Source: Haloferax litoreum
GTDB taxonomy: Archaea > Halobacteriota > Halobacteria > Halobacteriales > Haloferacaceae
DNA length: 64,000 bases
NCBI RefSeq assembly: GCF_009674605.1
Contig: NZ_WKJO01000001.1
Span: 496,001-560,000 of the forward strand
Reading direction: 5' to 3'
The notes beneath the pieces were generated by a model that worked only from the letters and a program-made list of their open reading frames with translations, did no database searches and was not told the DNA's origin. How positions within the stretch are numbered: position 1 is the first letter of the stretch; each line of letters begins with the position of its first letter. Below, piece by piece: positions 4,172-56,573 of the stretch. The translations under genes and the position numbers were made by a program.

Positions 4172-6622
4172 TTACTGTCCGTCGGCGTCGTCGTCCGTAC
4201 CACCGTCGGTCGCGGGCGCGTCGGCGACGCGGGGCACAGTTTCGCTGGTCTGGTCGTCGCCGTCGAACTGGTCGAAGTCGGCGTCCGAGACGCTGGCGTC
4301 GACGGTGAACGAGTCGACGAGCGCCATCAACCGTTCGGACTGCGAGGCGAGACGGTCTGCACCGCTCGAAACTTCACCGAGCGAAGCGGTCTGTTCTTCC
4401 GTCGCGGCGGCGACGGACTCCGCACGCTCTGCCGTGTCTTCGCTGATGTCGGCGGCCTGGTCCATCATCGACGCGACTTCTTCGGTCGACGCCGCCTGTT
4501 CGTCGGTCGTTCGGCTGATTTCGTCGACGCCGGCGTTCGTCTCGCGGACGTTCTCGACGATGGTGTCGAGCGAGTCGTGGGCGTCTCCGACGGCGTCGAC
4601 ACCGGTTTCGACGGCGTCTCTCGTCTCACGCATCTCTTCGACGGACGCCTCGGACTTCGCTTGCACACCGTCGATGGTCGCCGCAATCTCTTCGGCGGAC
4701 TCTTTGGTCTCACCGGCGAGTTGCTTGACCTCGTTGGCGACGACGGCGAAGCCTTCACCCGCCTCGCCTGCCCGCGCCGCCTCGATGTTCGCGTTGAGCG
4801 CGAGGATGTTGGTCTGGTCGGCGATGTCGGTGATGAGTTCGACGATGTCACCAATCTGCTCCATGTCGGATTCGAGTGCTTCGATGCGCTGGACCGTACG
4901 CTCGGTCTGTGACTCGACTCGTTCGATGGTGTCGATGGCGTTCGCCGCGGCGTCTCGACCGTCTTCGCTCGCTTCGAGGGTGTGCGTCGCGGTCTGTTCG
5001 AGTTCGCTCGCGGACGACGCAACCTCCTCGATAGTCGCAGAGAGGTTGCTCGTCTCGTCGGTGGTCTGATGGATGCGCTCTTGCTGTTCGTGGGCACCCT
5101 CGGCCATGACCTGCGTGGACTCGCTGACCTGTCTGCTTGCGCGTTCTATCTCCTGTGCGCTCGCGGTGACCTCTTCGGACGCTGCGGCGACCGTCTCGGC
5201 GAAGGACGCGACTTCGGCGATGGTCGATTCGAGTTGGTCGGCCATGTCGTTGAACGACTGCGCCATCTCGTTCATCGCCTCGTTGTCGGCATCTTCGGAC
5301 ATCCGACCGGTCAGGTCGCCGTCTGCGGCCTCCGACATGATGTCGCTGAACTCCTCGGCTTTCGATTCGAGTTCCGAGATGAGCGCTTCGAGGTCGTCGT
5401 GCGTACGGCCCATGGCTTCACCGAACGACCCGGGAACTTCCTCGTCGAGGACCGGGTCGTCGAAGTTCTTCTCCGCGAGGGCCTCTGCTTGTCCTGCGAC
5501 CGTCGTCAGATACGACTGCATCGCGGCGAACGAGTCGTAGAGTCTGCCCATCTCGTCGATGCGCGTGGTCTGTGGCACGTCGCCATCGACTTCCCCGCTG
5601 GCGATTTCGTCGGCGTTCTTCGCCACGACGGCGAGTGACCGGGCAGTCCCTCGGCCCATCGTCAGGCCGACGAGGAACAACGACCCGATAGCGAACGCCA
5701 GCAGGATGCCGACGTTCTGTGAGACCTGCGATTGCAGTGCGAAGGCGCGCTCTGCCGGGACGTGGTACGTGAGCACCCAGTCGGTGCCCGTGATTGGCGC
5801 GTACGCCATCGCGTACTGCCCCGATTCCATGCCCGTGCGGGCTGAGACGACGTCGTAGCCGCTGTGTCCGTCGAGACCGTGTTCGATGGCGGAGACGCTC
5901 GACCCATCGAGCGCCGCGTACGTGTCGAGGAGCGACGACTTTCGGTTGTCGAGGAGGATGGTCCCGTCCGCGGTGACGACTTTCACGTCACCCGTTGCGA
6001 ACGGGGAAGAGAACTCGTGTGACCGCGCTTCGGCCGAGGCGGTCAGGACGATGAACCCGTTCGTCTCCGCGACGGGTGCGACGAACGCGACGACGGGTTC
6101 GCCGCCTGTCTCGTACGGTGCCGACGTGGTTGCCGACGCGGACTGCGCGAGTTCGGCAGCGCGGTCCGTCCACGGTGCGTCGATGTTGTCGAGCGATTGG
6201 CCACTCGCGTCGTCCGACGTACTGGCGACGACAGACCGCGAGTCGGCATCGACGTAGTGGAGCGACCGAACGTCGCCGGGCAGTTCGATGAGTTTCTGTT
6301 CTAGCCACCGCTCGTGTGCCGCCGCAGAGGTGGTCAGCGGTTGTTCACCGAGCGACTCCGCGAGGAACGTCGCCGACGATTGCTTCGATTCCGTCCAGTC
6401 GGCGACGGAACGGGCTTCCGACTCCGCGATTCCCCGAATCTCTTCTTCGGTCGTCGATTCGACGGCCGCCTTGGTGTCGAAGTGGATGAACACGCCCACC
6501 GCAGACATGACGAGGACGATGGCGAGAAGGGCCACACCGAACTTCGCCGCGTACCGCCGGCGAATCACGTTCGGAAGGAGTCGTTCGAGCGACCCAATCA
6601 GCCGCGAGAGCGGCGAGCTCAT
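4172..6622 (-). CDS. Membrane methyl-accepting transducer with Cache domain
   Basis: Transducer of 816 residues. Transmembrane helix 1 is at about 27-46 and helix 2 at about 303-323, enclosing an extracellular region of about 250 residues that looks like a double-Cache ligand-binding domain. A HAMP domain follows ([21 protein letters not shown]) and a second HAMP-like segment near 400-470, then the MCP coiled coil with the signalling tip [18 protein letters not shown]. The ATG overlaps the TGA of the upstream substrate-binding lipoprotein gene by 4 bp, so the two are translationally coupled. That arrangement resembles the Halobacterium BasB-BasT pair, where a binding lipoprotein hands an amino-acid signal to the transducer. 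The ligand here is unknown. Confidence 0.93.
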
Positions 6623-49426: not shown

Positions 49427-50551
49427 CTACCAGCAGTTTCGAACGTACTCAGAGCGGTCCTGTTTCCGTTTTTGCTCCGTACGTGGGTCGTAGTGTCTTC
49501 GAAGAGTTTGCACGGACACATCGAACCGCTCACTCGCAATGTCTGGTCTCAGTCCGCTACTCAAGTGATGAACAATCGCACCCCGACGAATCGCGTGTGG
49601 GTAGAACGAAACGGGGCAGACTTCCGAGCGGGCACTACACTCACCGTCACAGTTTACAGAACTGTCCGGACTCGTGTTCCAGCGACAACTCGTTGCTTCG
49701 TACACTTTTCGACGCAGTGTGGATCGAGCAGCTCTACCTTGCGACGTAGCGAACAGCGGAGAGCGACCGAACTCATCAGTCACGTCCGGTCGTTCAAGTT
49801 CAATGTAGATTTCAATCGCGTTCACCACACACTCCTTGAGTGCGACGTTTCGCTCACCATTCCCAACATGGTCCTTGGTTTCACTCCCGTTCTTGAGACG
49901 AGTGCCTGTTGTCGGGCGGTGGCGTAATCTAATCTCGTTTTCTTCCGGGACGAAATCCCGGATGTCGAGTGAACGCGCTCCACCGATTCGAAGGCCTGCA
50001 TTCCAGAGGAGTTCAATCAGTGCGTGCTTCAGCGTTCCTCGCCGTTGGTTTCGGAGCTGCTCAAGAATTAATTCTGCCTCTCGAGTAGACAGGGCCTCAT
50101 CACGAGCCTTGGGGGAGAGTCCAAGGTCATCTTTATCCAGAATTCGGTAGAGCGACTCATCGCAGTATCCTCGCTTGGTGAGCCACCGAAGCCAACCGCG
50201 TACGTTCTTTGTGTACGTGAGAATCGTTGCGTCAGAGTTGTACCGTTCTTGGAGTGAGTCAACGTAACTGTCCAAGAGATGAATAGAGAGTTCCGACGGT
50301 TCAGCGACTTCATTCGATTCGGAGAACTCGATGAAATCCAAAATGGTTCGCTTGTATTGAGCGCGTGTCGATGGGCTACGGTCTTGCCGGCGAGACAGGA
50401 ACCGTTCGTAGAGTGTTACTAGAGATTCTTGGTTCGGTTTTTCTAGTCGTTGCCCCTTAGACTGATCACTGCCTTGCGTGATTTCGAGAACTTTTCTTAT
50501 CGCTACAGGGTCGTTGATCCGAGCCAATATCTGCTCTAGTTGCTTGTTCAT
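49427..50551 (-). CDS. Tyrosine recombinase (active-site complete)
   Basis: Tyrosine recombinase of 374 residues. Catalytic Arg188 (NAGLRIGGARSLD), His319/Arg322 (HAIRRGAIVHHL) and Tyr354 (RRHYDPRTEQ) are all present. The N-terminal SAM-like domain is at about 40-135. A Cys-rich stretch (Cys289, 301, 305, 312) lies just before the HxxR box, as in the element's integrase at 31703, and FGRSPLFATSQGR matches that protein too, so the two are related. The ATG overlaps the end of the upstream gene by 4 bp; that gene encodes a truncated, inactive relative, so the two are made together. Confidence 0.88.
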   Translation of the reverse strand: MNKQLEQILARINDPVAIRKVLEITQGSDQSKGQRLEKPNQESLVTLYERFLSRRQDRSPSTRAQYKRTILDFIEFSESNEVAEPSELSIHLLDSYVDSLQERYNSDATILTYTKNVRGWLRWLTKRGYCDESLYRILDKDDLGLSPKARDEALSTREAELILEQLRNQRRGTLKHALIELLWNAGLRIGGARSLDIRDFVPEENEIRLRHRPTTGTRLKNGSETKDHVGNGERNVALKECVVNAIEIYIELERPDVTDEFGRSPLFATSQGRAARSTLRRKVYEATSCRWNTSPDSSVNCDGECSARSEVCPVSFYPHAIRRGAIVHHLSSGLRPDIASERFDVSVQTLRRHYDPRTEQKRKQDRSEYVRNCW

Positions 50552-51483
50552 TCAGAATCGAGAGTTGATGAAATCGCATAGTGCCAGACGTCAGTGGGGG
50601 TGAGTGTCTGGAACCTTGTCTCAGAAACCTGTGCGCGATACTGTGAGCTTCCCAGCTTGTTTCGGAATTTCGAGTAATCGCTAGCTGCTTCACTGGCTAG
50701 TTTGAATGAACGGCGAAGGGTTGATGCGCTAATTCGACCATGAGTGGTCGTGAATAGAGGATTGGATTTAGAGTCATTCACCGCCTTACGCTCGTGTTCA
50801 ATATACGTCCTGAGAGCAGTGCAGGCACCATCAGAGAGCTTCGCAGTTCGTCGGTTGAGCAAGCCAACTGAACTCACAAGGTAGTTTTTAGAAATGCCAA
50901 CTGAGAGCGTCTTGTTCTCCAAATTGACGTCTGAGCGATCGAGCTCTATGAGCTGTCCTGGACGGCTCTTGGTGTCGCGCAATAACTCGACAAACGCGTG
51001 TGTTCTGGTCCCGGACCCTCTATCTTGGAGATAAGCGATCATAGCTTCAGATGACCAATGAAGCTCAGGACTTGGGTTGTTTAAACTGGAAAAGCGTGGG
51101 GCAAATTCTTTCGCAACAGAATGAACGGCCAATGAAGGATACTCTTCTAGAGAGGTGGCAATTTGAAACCGGAGCGCGTCTGGGCTACTCTTTGTAATGT
51201 AAGCAAGGAAATTAGTCAGGGTGTAGAGATATCCATGGATAGTGTCAGGTCTCTGGTCTTCCTCAGAGAGAAGAAATTCGACAAATCCGCTTATCTGATT
51301 AAAGCTTGAACTCGACTTCCTATCAGAAGTCTTCTGAAGCCAATTGACAAATTTTATTATGGCAGTTTGATGTGATAAGAAAGTTTGCTCTGGGACTTCT
51401 TGTGATAGGACATTGAGGTATGTGGAAGATGCTTCTTCGAGATTTCCCAAAGGTCCTCGACCACTAGTCTGAGGGGTCCTCAT
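50548..51483 (-). CDS. Catalytically inactive recombinase-like protein
   Basis: Protein of 311 residues with the layout of a tyrosine recombinase: N-terminal SAM-like half (LSHQTAIIKFVNWLQKTSDR; YLYTLTNFLAYITKS) and a catalytic-domain-like second half (AFVELLRDTKSRPGQLIELD; NPLFTTTHGRISASTLRRSF). An Arg can be aligned with the first catalytic Arg (TKSRPGQLIEL). The HxxR box is replaced by TPTDVWHYAIS, and the chain ends there, so the Tyr nucleophile is absent. It overlaps the active recombinase gene by 4 bp (ATGA). It is probably a partner or regulator rather than a decayed gene, since the frame is fully open and coupled. Confidence 0.75.
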   Translation of the reverse strand: MRTPQTSGRGPLGNLEEASSTYLNVLSQEVPEQTFLSHQTAIIKFVNWLQKTSDRKSSSSFNQISGFVEFLLSEEDQRPDTIHGYLYTLTNFLAYITKSSPDALRFQIATSLEEYPSLAVHSVAKEFAPRFSSLNNPSPELHWSSEAMIAYLQDRGSGTRTHAFVELLRDTKSRPGQLIELDRSDVNLENKTLSVGISKNYLVSSVGLLNRRTAKLSDGACTALRTYIEHERKAVNDSKSNPLFTTTHGRISASTLRRSFKLASEAASDYSKFRNKLGSSQYRAQVSETRFQTLTPTDVWHYAISSTLDSE

Positions 51484-51531
51484 TCTTGCAGCATCCTCCA
51501 GTTGCTACCCGAGAGGGGGTCACGTGCAGTT

Positions 51532-51619
51532 CTGTCCGAGTGGGTACTGAATGACCATTTCGCGCGATAGAATGGAAGATCTTTCTTCCCACATGGTCAC
51601 TCAGTGACCACTCGGACAG
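51532..51619. repeat. 26-bp inverted repeat upstream of recombinase operon
   Basis: Arms at 51532-51557 and 51594-51619 are inverted copies with three mismatches, separated by 36 bp. The right arm itself contains the perfect 17-bp palindrome TGGTCACTCAGTGACCA. A further small dyad GGAAG-N6-CTTCC lies in the spacer at 51574-51589. It begins 49 bp upstream of the inactive-recombinase start codon, and the IS was inserted 8 bp to its right. It has the form of a recombinase core site or an operator with paired binding sites. Confidence 0.6.
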
Positions 51620-51627
51620 TAGTGGCA

Positions 51628-51635
51628 GTAATTTT
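51628..51635. repeat. IS target duplication, left copy
   Basis: GTAATTTT directly before the left inverted repeat of the IS. It is identical to the eight bases after the right end. Confidence 0.85.
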
Positions 51636-51813
51636 GGCTCTGTTGAAACCCTATTTGTCAGATATCTTTCCTACTGAAACAGCTGCTACGGAGACGTGCT
51701 TACCTCACACGGACGAAGAGTGGCCTCAAGCTCGTCGGGTCGGTCAGCATACTCTTTTCGTGCAGGCTGAGTCAAAAAGAATATTTTAGCATATCTGCAC
51801 TCTACTCGTACGG

Positions 51814-52359
51814 ATGAGAGGCCCTGAAGAAGATGAAGAAATCGAACGAGCGATCCAGTATTTAGTCCACTCGTTCGAAACATCAGGGAATAATCCCAAA
51901 CCGGTGATACTCCATAGTACACGAGTCGGGATGGATCTTTACGACAGAGGATACGAGAAGCCCATCGTCATCTCCGGCTTCCTCCACGATCTAATAGAGG
52001 ATACGGATGTGACTGCTGCTGAGATTCGCTCGGAGTTCGGAGACGACGTTGGAAATATTGTGGCAGCCACCAGTTTCGACGAGAGTATAGACGACTATCT
52101 TGAACAGCACTACGATATCTATGAAAGATGCTTCGAACTTGGACGACCTGCTGTCGTCGTGAAAGCTGTGGATATCCTCGATAACAGTGATTACTACCAT
52201 TTGGGGGGGTCAGAGGAACTACGAAAAAACCTGATCGAGAAAATGGACTACTTCATCAGACACTCTGAACCGTATATTGGAGACGAAGACATCTATCAGG
52301 AACTAAAGGACAAGTTCCCCATCGTGAAGGAACGATTGGAAATAAAACCCGACAATTGA
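51814..52359 (+). CDS. SpoT/Mesh1-like HD hydrolase carried by the IS
   Basis: HD-domain protein of 181 residues, close in size to small alarmone hydrolases. The metal-binding and catalytic residues fit the RelA/SpoT hydrolase pattern: His34 (VILHSTRVGM), His58-Asp59 with the HDxxEDT form (FLHDLIEDTDVT), and Asp120 with Asn124 (VVKAVDILDN, compare KLADRLHN in SpoT). These suggest removal of the 3'-pyrophosphate of (p)ppGpp or a related nucleotide; other HD substrates are possible. A TATA-like GAATATTTTA lies about 30 bp before the ATG, so it has its own promoter. It lies wholly between the IS ends. Archaea generally lack long RelA/SpoT proteins, so the cargo is unexpected. Confidence 0.8.
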   Translation: MRGPEEDEEIERAIQYLVHSFETSGNNPKPVILHSTRVGMDLYDRGYEKPIVISGFLHDLIEDTDVTAAEIRSEFGDDVGNIVAATSFDESIDDYLEQHYDIYERCFELGRPAVVVKAVDILDNSDYYHLGGSEELRKNLIEKMDYFIRHSEPYIGDEDIYQELKDKFPIVKERLEIKPDN

Positions 52360-52434
52360 TTTATGGCTTGTTTGCACCGTGTTCCGGCTGGCCATCGAGT
52401 CAAAAGTGGCACGTTGCTGTTCTACATCTAACGG

Positions 52435-53256
52435 TCAGAATGTCTTGTCGATATTGTGAATGAGGCAGCTGACGACGAGTTCCCGGAACTTCTTCCACCA
52501 ATGTCGTGAGCGGACGAATGCGCCATATTTCCGTTTGAGACGGGAATTCACCGTCTCGTTCTGACTGCGTTGGCCGTAGAGGTCGGTGTCCAGCCGAGCG
52601 TTCCATGCCTTGTGGAGCGACGAAAAATCGCGGTGCTTGATGAGAGGACGAACACCATTTTCACGGGCTAACAAGCGAATCTTCTGGTCGTCGTATCCTT
52701 TGTCGCCAAGGAGAATCGCTACTTCTTCGGCATTTCGCTTGATGAGCGACGGTGCGATCTTCGAGTCGTGCTTTCTGGTCGTCGTTACGTGCAGATCAAG
52801 AATCGCATTCGCTCTCGTGTCCACGAGCAGTGTGACTTTCAACTGCTGAATCGTCAACTATGTTCGCTTCGTGTAGTGTTTCGAGGCGTGACTACGGTCG
52901 AATCCGGAGGCGTCGATCCCGACGGCACCGTTGGTCGGGAGGAGCGTAATCGAGGGGTTGAGAAGGACACGCCAGACAGCCATATCGAGTCGATTGAACG
53001 CCTTACACAACGTCGAAGGTGACGGGAGTTCCTCAAGATCGATGGCGCTCCGAATGCGAGGCATCTCGATCAGCTCGTTAAGCAGGGTTCGGTACGTTGT
53101 ATTCTTCCGCACCTTGAGACAGAGCAGGACGATGTGCTGGTGGAGTGTGTACCGTCGTTTCGAGAATCTTGAGGAGTAGCGAGCGACAGCTCGTTGAGCC
53201 AAGTTATACGCTTGCTCAACGAACCGGAGCAACCGCGAATTCGGGAGGGCCTGCAT
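52435..53256 (-). pseudogene. IS5-type DDE transposase with in-frame TAG stop
   Basis: The transposase reads from ATG 53256 through YSSRFSKRRYTLHQH and the first catalytic Asp (GIDASGFDRSHASKHY) to KRT, then TAG at 52860-52858. It continues in the same frame with LTIQQLKVTLLVDTRAN, second Asp (LLGDKGYDDQKIRLL), and Glu (QNETVNSRLKRKYG) to the stop at 52435. Without the TAG it would be a complete protein of about 273 residues with all three DDE residues, so a single nonsense change (for example AAG to TAG) has disabled it unless the stop is read through. No frameshift is seen. Confidence 0.85.
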
Positions 53257-53308
53257 TTAGTCAAACTACTGGATGAACCTGTAACTCTCTGAGGATTTCA
53301 ACAGAGCC

Positions 53309-53316
53309 GTAATTTT
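53309..53316. repeat. IS target duplication, right copy
   Basis: GTAATTTT, identical to 51628-51635, directly after the right terminal repeat. Confidence 0.85.
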
Positions 53317-53351
53317 GGAATGTGCAAAGACGTTTACAGCAGTCTGAAGTT

Positions 53352-54452
53352 TTACACTCCTAATTGAAGTCCCGGGAACAACTCTGCAACGAGTTCTTCA
53401 TAATCTTCTTCGTTGTGTTCATAATACTTTTTTGTGGTTTCCGTACTGCTGTGTCCCATGGCTGCGCTCCGAGCTTCGCGTGGAACTCCTGCATCAATCA
53501 TGAGCTGATTGAATGTGTGCCTAAGGGTGTGGAGAGTAACTCTGTGAAACACTCTGTACTCTCTGTTGTGACTAAACGTTGGTCTTTGTGCACCTGTGAG
53601 TTTAACCTTGCCAATAATTTCTTGAATTCCGGCGTTCTCAGCAGCTTCCACGATAGCCTCATTTAAACAAGTTTTTGACAGATGTTTTTTTCCTGTTCCG
53701 GGAAGTAGATATTCGTTTTCTGGATCTACGAGTGACGAGTTTCTACCAACTTCCAACCAATGACGGAGCTCTAAAGCCAACTCATCGTTAATTTTTGCTC
53801 TTTGCCAAATTCTAGACTTAGTATTATAGAATACGATTCTATTTTCATCTAAATTGATATTACTTACTTTTAACTTCTGGAGGTCCGAGCATCTTAGACC
53901 GTGCTCAAGCACAATTCGAGCTATTAGACGATCTCTTAGTGAACACAAATTATCCATCAACAACTTTACCTCTTCAGCTGATATTGACCTACGCTCAATA
54001 GGAGGCAGCGTAGGATATTGAGACGGTTTAATAAATTCATCGATATTATACCATTCAAGATTTAATTCATCATCAAAATGAACATCAATGAACCGGTATA
54101 TGTTTTTCAACGATGTCCTGTATCCTAATAGTGTATTCTTTCTTTTTCCTTCATCGCATAACATGTTGAAAAATGAATGAACGTGCTGCATCTCTGCTGT
54201 ACAAACAGTAAGTTCATCGTTGTAGATGTAATCTGAGAATCGGTTCAGGCGGCAGGAATACGCTTGAGCACTCCCAGGACGGATATTTCCATCGATGTTT
54301 TCACAAAGATAATTGATCACATGCCCGCACCTTGCATCCATTAAGTTGTATTCATTTTGCAACTCTTTCCAACGAGCTCGTTCTTTTGCATCTTTGTATA
54401 GTGGACAGACAGGAGAATCTGAAGGGATCTGATGCGAGGTTTTACGAATCAT
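53352..54452 (-). CDS. Tyrosine recombinase, second module
   Basis: Tyrosine recombinase of 366 residues. Catalytic Arg187 (EHGLRCSDLQKL), His308/Arg311 (HTLRHTFNQLM), His334 (GHSSTETT) and Tyr343/344 (KKYYEHNEED) are present. The block REYRVFHRVTLHTLRH and the preceding AAENAGIQEIIGKVKLTG are shared with the recombinase at 55560, so these two are paralogues. It is distinct from the Cys-rich type at 31703 and 49427. The start codon overlaps the upstream RHH/winged-helix gene by 4 bp. Codon use is strongly AT-rich. Confidence 0.88.
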   Translation of the reverse strand: MIRKTSHQIPSDSPVCPLYKDAKERARWKELQNEYNLMDARCGHVINYLCENIDGNIRPGSAQAYSCRLNRFSDYIYNDELTVCTAEMQHVHSFFNMLCDEGKRKNTLLGYRTSLKNIYRFIDVHFDDELNLEWYNIDEFIKPSQYPTLPPIERRSISAEEVKLLMDNLCSLRDRLIARIVLEHGLRCSDLQKLKVSNINLDENRIVFYNTKSRIWQRAKINDELALELRHWLEVGRNSSLVDPENEYLLPGTGKKHLSKTCLNEAIVEAAENAGIQEIIGKVKLTGAQRPTFSHNREYRVFHRVTLHTLRHTFNQLMIDAGVPREARSAAMGHSSTETTKKYYEHNEEDYEELVAELFPGLQLGV

Positions 54453-55057
54453 GCTTCACCAGACATATCTTCTCCATTCGAAGTGCCTGCTCTAAGTTGG
54501 TATTCTGTAATTCCATCGTTGACGATCGATGTAACTAGAAAGCGGGAATCAAGACGTCCCACGCTATCACGCACCTCCGATTCTATTCTCCCACAATGGT
54601 CCGATATTTCAGAGAGTGTTGCTTTCTTAAGATGCTTGATTGAGTCGTAAGTGTCATTGTCGATAGCTGTTTTTTCATTTGCGCCACTTTCTGGCTTAGG
54701 GGCGGATTCTGTCAATGGAATTCTTGGAAGTGAACCGTCAGAGCCAGTCTCCAGTTGGGTGGAGTGCTTCAATGGAAGCTGTGGACCAACAATGACTGAA
54801 AGTAGGCTTTCAATTATTCCAGACAATTCGTGTAATTTCTCAGATTGGGAATCAACTTTCTTATGGAGTAGCTTGATTGAATCTTCACTATCACCATCAA
54901 GTGTACGCTCGTGGTCAGTAATGCACGCACGCAGAGCTTCACTTCGTGAGACGTAGTAGTTCGACGCCATCTGGTCAAGGATTTTGCTATGACGAAGTGT
55001 AATCGTACAATTCGGTTTTACAAGCTTTTGTGACGCGGGTTTTGCATTTTGGCGCAT
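54449..55057 (-). CDS. RHH/coiled-coil/winged-helix protein paired with recombinase
   Basis: Protein of 202 residues. The N-terminal part up to about 50 is ribbon-helix-helix-like (NCTITLRHSKILDQMASNYY followed by SRSEALRACITDHE). A coiled coil follows (IKLLHKKVDSQSEKLHELSG), a low-complexity linker, and a C-terminal winged helix (SIKHLKKATLSEISDHCGRI; DSRFLVTSIVNDGITEYQL). ATG 55057 has GGGTGA at a 6-nt spacing; ATG 55063 is an alternative two codons longer. It is coupled to the recombinase by ATGA. The same layout is seen at 56570-57100, so these are probably DNA-binding partners or directionality factors of the recombinases. Confidence 0.68.
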   Translation of the reverse strand: MRQNAKPASQKLVKPNCTITLRHSKILDQMASNYYVSRSEALRACITDHERTLDGDSEDSIKLLHKKVDSQSEKLHELSGIIESLLSVIVGPQLPLKHSTQLETGSDGSLPRIPLTESAPKPESGANEKTAIDNDTYDSIKHLKKATLSEISDHCGRIESEVRDSVGRLDSRFLVTSIVNDGITEYQLRAGTSNGEDMSGEA

Positions 55058-55063
55058 ACTCAT

Positions 55064-55559
55064 TCACCCAGTATATCACACCCTGCTCTGGAGTTGGTGG
55101 GAATAGTTTGATTGCTATCAACCTCACCTGAAAGGAGGATGGTTTGTTGTTCGGTAGTTCTTACTTCTAGCCGCCTCCGACCTTGCTGGCGTTGGGTATG
55201 GCTGTCGCTAGGGTTGGTTTCTAACATTGCTTACTAGCCACTTTCTATTGAACCAGTGACAACAGCAACAACCTCAACCGAATCTCGATCTTAATCGGCT
55301 GATTGGAGGTCACTTTTGTCGAAGTTAGCTCTGTTACTGAGGTGGCTGTGCCAAATAATTACACTCGGGAGTATATATGCCTATTTTATCTGTGATATTC
55401 AATCAAAAACCGGCAGTACTAAAGATTAGTTTATTTCATAAACCACGCCACCATATATACTTTATATAGAGGCATAACAGGATACACTCATTATGTGCTA
55501 ATCAGTGTAATTGGACAATTGTTCATATCTTCAAAGTACACGGTTATGAGAAGATCGCG
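55064..55559. other. Gene-free AT-rich gap between recombinase modules
   Basis: About 500 bp without a convincing open frame. It should contain the promoter of the RHH gene to its left (reading leftward) and perhaps a recombination site. There are AT-rich blocks such as CATATATACTTTATATAG near 55451-55470. I found no clear long inverted repeat, tandem repeat or RNA gene. Confidence 0.4.
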
Positions 55560-56573
55560 TTATCGAGGAGGGTCAAACTGGTCTCTAATCGACTCAAAAA
55601 TGTTGTCCCGACTATGCGTATATCCCTGAGTTGTTCTGTAGGTTGAGTGGTTAGCCAACAATTGGCGGTACTCTAAGGATACACCTGCTTCGTTTAACAG
55701 CGTAATGAAAGAGTGACGAAGAGTGTGTGGAGTCACTCTATGCCATTCTCGGTATTGTTTCTCCGTTCCGAGTACGTCCTGCTGCGAAGGGGTGAGCTTT
55801 GATTGAGCAATTACCCGTTGAACCCCAGCCCGGTCTGCGGCATCTCTAACAATTTTATTGAGGCTGCTATTGTGCTCGAGTTTGTGTCCCGATTGACTAG
55901 GAAATAGATACTCGCTTTCATTCGCAGCACAGTAGGCCGGTCGATGATGACGAAGCCAAAACCCGATCTCAAACTCCAATTCGTCGCTTATTGGGACATC
56001 GTAGGGTTTGGAATACTTCGGGGTTGGAACATGAAGCTCGCAACGTTCAGTGTTGACGTCGTCTATTTTGATTTCTCTCAGGTCAGAGTTCCTCAGTCCT
56101 GTTTCAATTCCAACAACGACGATGAGTCTATTCCTGTAGCTGTTGAACGCACTGAACAGCTTTCGTATCTCTTCTCGGGTCAGTGCATCTCTCTTGATGA
56201 GTTCTGGTGTGTTGTACCGGCTCAAGTCAATTTCCGAGATGCGAAGTGGATCGAAGAGAAGTTCATCGCCAACATCTGTTCGAAGACGAATATATCGATA
56301 CAGCTCACTCACAGTTGAGACCTTTCCGCTAATCGTCGTCTCTCGATTTCCGCGCAAGACGCACTCTTCAATGAATTCGATTAAATCGATGAACTCGGCT
56401 GTGAGTATCGACTTGTCTTGAGCGTGGAGGAATGTGGCGTATTGAGTGAGATGAGAGTCGTATGTCTTTACCGTCTGTGGAGAAAGCGAAAGGGTTGAAT
56501 TCTTTCTGAGGTACTCTTGTGCGAGCTCATCCGGTACTCGGAGTTCGACAGGCTCCGATTGTCGCTCCGTCAT
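55560..56573 (-). CDS. Tyrosine recombinase, first module
   Basis: Tyrosine recombinase of 337 residues. Arg161 (IETGLRNSDLREIK), His283/Arg286 (HTLRHSFITLL), His309 (LLANHSTYRTT) and Tyr318 (GYTHSRDN) complete the active site. The N-terminal SAM-like domain is at about 15-110. It is paralogous to the recombinase at 53352 (shared WHRVTPHTLRHSF and DAADRAGVQRVIAQSKLT). The ATG overlaps the TGA of the RHH/winged-helix gene by 4 bp. It is the last gene of an operon that starts with the Cas4-like nuclease at 58821. Confidence 0.88.
   Translation of the reverse strand: MTERQSEPVELRVPDELAQEYLRKNSTLSLSPQTVKTYDSHLTQYATFLHAQDKSILTAEFIDLIEFIEECVLRGNRETTISGKVSTVSELYRYIRLRTDVGDELLFDPLRISEIDLSRYNTPELIKRDALTREEIRKLFSAFNSYRNRLIVVVGIETGLRNSDLREIKIDDVNTERCELHVPTPKYSKPYDVPISDELEFEIGFWLRHHRPAYCAANESEYLFPSQSGHKLEHNSSLNKIVRDAADRAGVQRVIAQSKLTPSQQDVLGTEKQYREWHRVTPHTLRHSFITLLNEAGVSLEYRQLLANHSTYRTTQGYTHSRDNIFESIRDQFDPPR

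Follow-up and report, generated by a model that had tools for sequence, protein, structure and literature searches.

Insertion sequences (ISs) are commonly regarded as carrying no more than their movement requires. Those that carry passengers have been termed transporter ISs (tIS) and are known from the IS1595 family and others (PMC3129680, PMC7986276); they combine their own transposase with genes unrelated to transposition and have been described as individual members of their families. Modular elements of the IS4 family, IS231/MIC231, were described in the Bacillus cereus group (De Palmenaer 2004, as related in PMC2266710). In these, passenger genes or extra DNA lie between the left terminal repeat and the transposase gene, and cassettes devoid of a transposase share the same ends. 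According to a review from 2008, extra DNA in this position was unobserved in other families (PMC2266710). For haloarchaea, a transposon of Halorubrum lacusprofundi with the passenger gene Hlac_3088 has been mentioned in passing (PMC10544981).

The element analyzed here is located in a stretch of 64,000 nucleotides (the window) from Haloferax litoreum contig NZ_WKJO01000001.1. With considerable confidence, we assign it to a large group of haloarchaeal IS5-type transporter ISs that are modular and carry cargo, the cargo in this copy being the gene for an HD-domain protein with its own promoter. IS231/MIC231 may be seen as the nearest parallel to this group, with regard to both the position of the extra DNA and the transposase-less form encountered in one relative (L022, see below). 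The resemblance is one of working only, as the haloarchaeal transposase is of the IS5_2 type (NF033579), the IS4-family transposase and ends are lacking, and the hosts are archaea. Furthermore, in the haloarchaeal group every end-bounded member found contains cargo, and near-identical transposases are combined with unrelated cargo. In contrast to the known tIS cases, a conserved slot with exchangeable content is here shared by an entire group, whereas Hlac_3088 is a single anecdote that resembles the present case in being a passenger of a haloarchaeal transposon. In the literature searched, which did not cover ISfinder, no prior description of a haloarchaeal cargo-IS group was found.

Architecture of the element

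The 1,673-bp IS5-type element at 51636-53308 of the window consists of a left end of ~66 bp beginning with a 16-bp repeat, a cargo slot, and a DDE transposase module on the minus strand that ends in the right terminal repeat. Its features, each with the evidence on which it was assigned, are as follows:

51628..51635: left copy of the target-site duplication (TSD), GTAATTTT (sequence; exact match to 53309-53316)
51636..51651, plus strand: left terminal inverted repeat (IRL), GGCTCTGTTGAAACCC (sequence and repeat search)
51636..51701, plus strand: left end (LE), ~66 bp, conserved in the family; the cargo slot starts past it (column conservation; cargo-swapped pairs keep 60-67 bp)
51772..51789, plus strand: promoter of the passenger, TATA/BRE-like, situated 25-42 bp ahead of the ATG in a leaderless arrangement (conserved TCAAAAAGAAyATTTTAGC)
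51814..52359, plus strand: cargo gene for a 181-aa HD-domain protein with predicted small-alarmone-hydrolase (SAH)/Mesh1 fold (translation, profile and structure matches, model)
52421..52434: right border of the cargo slot; its sequence is CTACATCTAACGGT in this copy and CTATATCTAACGTT in the consensus of the family (conservation rises, 47 elements; swapped pairs rejoin)
52435..53256, minus strand: IS5-type DDE transposase gene (NF033579), split here by TAG, with a frame of 273 aa in relatives (translation, profile matches)
52858..52860, minus strand: in-frame TAG stop splitting the transposase, Lys in L014 (sequence, comparison with L014)
53293..53308, minus strand: right terminal inverted repeat, GGATTTCAACAGAGCC (sequence and repeat search)
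53309..53316: right copy of the TSD, GTAATTTT (sequence)

The terminal repeats are complementary at 15 of 16 positions and the 8-bp duplication is perfect, which bears out the proposal of an earlier note on this DNA that the 1,673 bp were inserted as a single piece. Terminal inverted repeats together with a TSD of fixed length, as characteristic of the IS5 family, were also observed in 45 relatives. The C-terminal part of the split transposase matches NF033579 (E 2.1e-38) and PF01609 (E 1.6e-13), and both halves match the same model, which places the enzyme among the IS5-family DDE transposases of the IS5_2 type. Of 73 relatives, 60 have a frame of 265 aa or more. Because its own gene contains a stop, the copy in the window would probably be mobile only when a relative supplies the transposase. 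Judging from the ends and the TSDs, this enzyme would act on both termini and move whatever is located between them.

A 98-bp imperfect palindrome (51527-51624; 45-nt arms, 76% complementary, CTGTCCGAGTGG...CCACTCGGACAG) ends 4 bp before the target duplication; apart from its own reverse strand, it is present in the genome as a single copy. Furthermore, the IS is surrounded by four tyrosine-recombinase/integrase-like genes (49427-56573), all on the minus strand, which suggests a hotspot for integrated elements:

49427-50551, minus strand: tyrosine-recombinase/integrase-like gene (Pfam)
50548-51483, minus strand: tyrosine-recombinase/integrase-like gene (Pfam)
53352-54452, minus strand: tyrosine-recombinase/integrase-like gene (Pfam)
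55560-56573, minus strand: tyrosine-recombinase/integrase-like gene (judged from sequence only)

Contig 2 of the same genome contains three more relatives, one of which (L002) extends over ~2.2 kb from GGCCTTGTTGAAA to its complement and encloses other cargo ORFs, while the other two (L003 and L004) are remnants.

Cargo-bearing relatives and the slot

DNA of the transposase module was present in 244 of the 392 haloarchaeal genomes; this sample was gathered within one order and with the transposase DNA of the window element itself, so diverged passengerless cousins could be missed. Left ends were located using 6 kb of left flank, and an IRL was accepted with at most two mismatches. It was found in 72 of 83 long copies (compared with 5 on the reverse-complement control), and no clear IRL was present within ~6 kb in 11. 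An IRL together with an exact 8-bp TSD was observed for 45 of the 83; with shuffled right flanks the corresponding mean was 0.58 and the maximum 3, which shows that the pattern is not due to chance. Both ends and target duplications were found for 49 copies, the IRL consensus of which is GGCTCTGTTGAAATCC. About a third of the IRL-bearing copies (24 of 73, including L014 and L005) lack a matching TSD.

Elements with an exact TSD range from 1,166 to 4,019 bp and their cargo from 293 to 3,146 bp. No passengerless copy was detected among the end-bounded relatives, though the method could have detected one. Candidates for such ISs of ~890 bp (with matches starting at IS position 786-795) had to be dismissed, as longer flanks placed the IRL and TSD 0.3-3 kb further left. 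The earlier note considered a nucleotide-hydrolase passenger on an archaeal IS unexpected; in this group, a passenger is no exception, since every end-bounded relative found contains cargo. One element of 1,304 bp, with cargo other than the HD gene, occurs unchanged at three sites (L052, L125, and L126), each of which has its own TSD, and this indirectly points to recent movement.

The borders of the slot became apparent from the alignment of 47 elements, where column conservation on the left side starts near 2 bits within the repeat and reaches background beyond ~position 66-70, and on the right side rises again at CTATATCTAACGTTCAG. Elements with almost the same transposase can contain entirely unrelated cargo, for which L116/L120 (99.8% transposase identity), L081/L108 (98.3%), and L071/L100 (97.4%), as well as the near-identical transposase modules of L072/L073 and L142/L144, are examples. 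Such pairs have only the left end and the transposase side in common, and the shared LE comprises 60-67 bp in the first three. Conversely, some cargos resemble each other more than the transposases do, as in L130/L133 (cargo 92.8%, transposase 83.9%). Cargo has thus been exchanged and gained over time. For the swaps that preserve the LE, we infer that the exchange would result from recombination inside the two conserved parts, the LE and the transposase module. Gain would make use of an upstream end resembling the inverted repeat: L127 corresponds to an L110-like element without its first 33 bp but with 1.3 kb of upstream DNA ending in another inverted repeat, and has an exact TSD, which points to the use of an upstream end for the acquisition of DNA.

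Alternatively, cargo might be exchanged in an integron-like fashion, by dedicated site-specific recombination at the slot borders and not by homologous or illegitimate recombination. The swap borders are indeed consistent (60-67 bp on the left, CTATATCTAACG on the right), and inverted arms are present at the borders of some elements (CGTTAGATA; GCTGAATACAG/CTGTATTCAGC in L116/L120). However, as a dedicated site of exchange these inner inverted repeats did not stand up, being overall only weakly better than chance (15.2 versus 14.2) and not significantly stronger within than between elements; moreover, no recombinase is encoded in the element, and the borders may simply mark where the functional end sequence stops. 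We therefore consider site-specific exchange unlikely and favor recombination within the conserved modules.

Capture by a composite transposon was considered for L120, with L135 as two inverted copies bracketing the same cargo, and was rejected, as L135 turned out to be an L120-like element beside a 339-bp transposase remnant. Elsewhere, two inverted copies of this IS group enclose a 72.9-kb segment of genome G250 (contig 4, 116645-189517; L107/L014), and an identical 8-bp sequence, GAATGAGA, adjoins each end on the outside, as would be seen if the segment had been moved or assembled as a single composite unit.

By nucleotide similarity, the 73 elements contain 63 unrelated cargo groups. The longest cargo ORF surpassed that of shuffled sequences in 31 of 47 elements, and 27 of the 30 cargo ORFs scanned matched a Pfam model at E 0.001 or better. 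The matches include a PLP-dependent (threonine-synthase-like) enzyme, a formate/nitrite transporter, a TrkA_C protein, a PAS histidine kinase, GST, RibD_C, acyl-CoA dehydrogenase, methyltransferases, redoxin, phosphatidylserine decarboxylase, polyprenyl synthetase, nitronate monooxygenase, SnoaL, GNAT, TrmO, alpha/beta hydrolases, HTH_10/BAT regulators, a thioredoxin-reductase-like flavoprotein, a periplasmic binding protein, an aminoglycoside-3-N-acetyltransferase-like fragment, and several DUFs. The latter acetyltransferase-like cargo (L143, 5066-5584; 173 aa) matches positions 1-102 of a 232-position model and is apparently truncated. The smallest slots contain ORFs of 54-71 aa, mostly with hydrophobic segments (judged by eye), which as ORFs mostly do not exceed chance. 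The host itself was considered as the donor of the phosphatidylserine decarboxylase cargo in L106, which shares only 52% identity with the gene residing in that genome and hence does not represent a recent local capture.

This IS group occurs in ~60% of the sampled haloarchaeal genomes, and its cargo, often an entire gene of host type enclosed by the element's own target duplications, differs in nearly every copy. It offers a tangible means for genes to be exchanged among haloarchaea, as they frequently are, and opens the capture of cargo by a minimal transposon to direct tests. Caution is also called for, as genes beside such transposases belong to a mobile unit. Whether these IS5-type elements amount to a general gene-shuttle system, in which an obligatory slot with conserved borders repeatedly captures and replaces host genes, and which would resemble gene-cassette systems but need no dedicated integrase and account for much of the small-scale gene exchange within the order, is a more speculative notion that we put forward tentatively and consider somewhat less probable than its opposite.

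The HD gene as IS cargo

The earlier note had called for a search for further copies with the same passenger between the same ends. Two were found: one in genome G250 (L014) covers the full 1,673 bp at 95.6% identity and contains an intact transposase frame, and one in Natrinema mahii (L005), at 91% identity, contains an insert of ~80 bp near the transposase start. As these are the closest copies, the note's reservation that the closest relatives might all lack the gene does not apply. The HD gene, a passenger unrelated to transposition, thus lies between the ends of the TSD-bounded element in the window and between those of L014 and L005, which is the arrangement that characterizes a tIS. In genome G207 (L022), an 882-bp form consists of the left end, the HD gene, and the right end, with the transposase mostly deleted and a TSD matching at 7 of 8 bases.

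In six lineages (the window, L014, L005, L021/L047, L022, and L048 from Haloferax mediterranei), the IRL is located 175-178 bp upstream of the HD start codon. The encoded proteins are down to 78% identical among these lineages, and the constant spacing therefore indicates that the association of the HD gene with the IS end is old. The dN/dS ratio among the IS copies (0.13-0.22) reflects purifying selection, which means that the gene is kept as a protein-coding gene, and host families are mixed in the HD gene tree. Sequence comparison thus supports that the HD gene moves as part of the IS.

A different explanation would be that a stray host gene was picked up once, by chance, by an ordinary passengerless IS, with nothing systematic behind it. 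Stand-alone HD homologues do exist on chromosomes or plasmids (L006, L007, L009, L017-L020, L023, and L024), and chromosomal ones without IS ends (L007, L024, and L009, the latter near secE/nusG) are what such an origin would lead one to expect. Yet, no passengerless relative was found, all 49 TSD-bounded relatives contain cargo, and cargo was repeatedly swapped between near-identical transposases, which renders a single chance acquisition highly improbable compared with membership in a cargo-carrying group. A search for the HD gene in viral contigs yielded nothing confirmed.

The insert in L005 (6447-6526) has palindromic ends (TATAGTAGCCACTGAAA...TTTCAGTGGCTACTATA) and is probably a MITE, because a similar sequence is present at about 4600-4635 of L005. 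In H. mediterranei (L048, plasmid pHME505), the HD gene with its intact IRL-like left end adjoins an IS1595-family transposase gene (4598-5575), possibly as the result of a nested insertion.

Predicted fold and function of the HD protein

The earlier note had assigned the HD gene its own TATA box. An AT-rich, TATA-like stretch, AATATTTTAG, is indeed located at 51780-51789, 25-34 bp upstream of the ATG; the surrounding promoter motif is kept in L014, L005, and L006, and in a diverged form in L017-L023 and L048. The ORF likewise contains the HDxxEDT pattern and the later Asp described before, as HDLIEDT followed by VKAVDILDN. The protein matches HD_4 weakly, RelA/SpoT models with E 4.6e-11, and the SAH-type structure Lmo0812 with E 3.6e-11. 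An AlphaFold model derived from 22 haloarchaeal sequences (pLDDT 92.4) superimposes over 163-164 residues on the SAH of P. aeruginosa (6yvc; Z 19.9, 2.1 Å) and on Mesh1 (3nr1; Z 19.8, 2.3 Å), so that the suspected likeness to Mesh1-type enzymes is upheld by the predicted fold. The whole length of the SAH/Mesh1 fold (PDB 6yvc, 3nr1, 5vxa, 4yf1) is thus predicted to be shared, as are the metal motifs: residues H34, H58, D59, E62, D63, and D120, which correspond to the H, HD, ED, and later D of these enzymes, are, together with N124, near-invariant in the HD family, the exception being H58Y in L006.

In contrast, identity to the small alarmone hydrolases and Mesh1 is only 16-23%. In the sequence alignment, the Arg-Lys pair of RelSeq and Lmo0812, which we take to be the base-recognition site of RelSeq-type hydrolases, coincides with G25 (invariant) and N/D26 of the HD family and is therefore absent. 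Unlike the known enzymes, the HD gene is also mobile and resides in haloarchaea without a known synthetase partner. Neither the host nor any of 146 Halobacteriales genomes yielded a RelA_SpoT synthetase domain (PF04607), with positive controls being matched in 11 of 14 genomes; the paired alarmone-synthetase toxin that would define a toxSAS antitoxin is thus lacking in this set.

The protein might still act as an alarmone hydrolase that shields the host from an alarmone-making toxin, as the earlier note had proposed, or aid persistence of the IS in the manner of an addiction or antitoxin module. The fold and the near-invariant metal ligands would fit this role, the (p)ppApp hydrolase 7smg and SAHs are among the structural matches, and SAHs without synthetases have already been noted in archaea, including Natronomonas pharaonis (Atkinson et al. 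2011, PMC3153485). However, the absence of both a synthetase domain and the Arg-Lys pair leaves an alarmone role unsupported. In addition, the element contains no toxin gene, PADLOC gave no match for the HD protein or for six other cargos, and relatives hold unrelated cargos in the same slot. We consider this role quite improbable. Most likely, the HD protein acts as a hydrolase of nucleotide 3′-phosphates or 3′-pyrophosphates that depends on metal and has the Mesh1/SAH fold. By analogy with the complexes of human MESH1 with PAPS and with NADPH, a PAPS-like 3′-phosphorylated nucleotide, or NADPH, is a plausible substrate. Such a hydrolase would exert a metabolic or housekeeping effect on the host, rather than serve as an antidote to a ppGpp toxin.

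The homologue with the exchanged metal ligand (L006, 5001-5546), from Halorhabdus salina, is 91% identical at the protein level and is not associated with IS ends; with His58 replaced by Tyr, it probably represents a natural active-site knockout.
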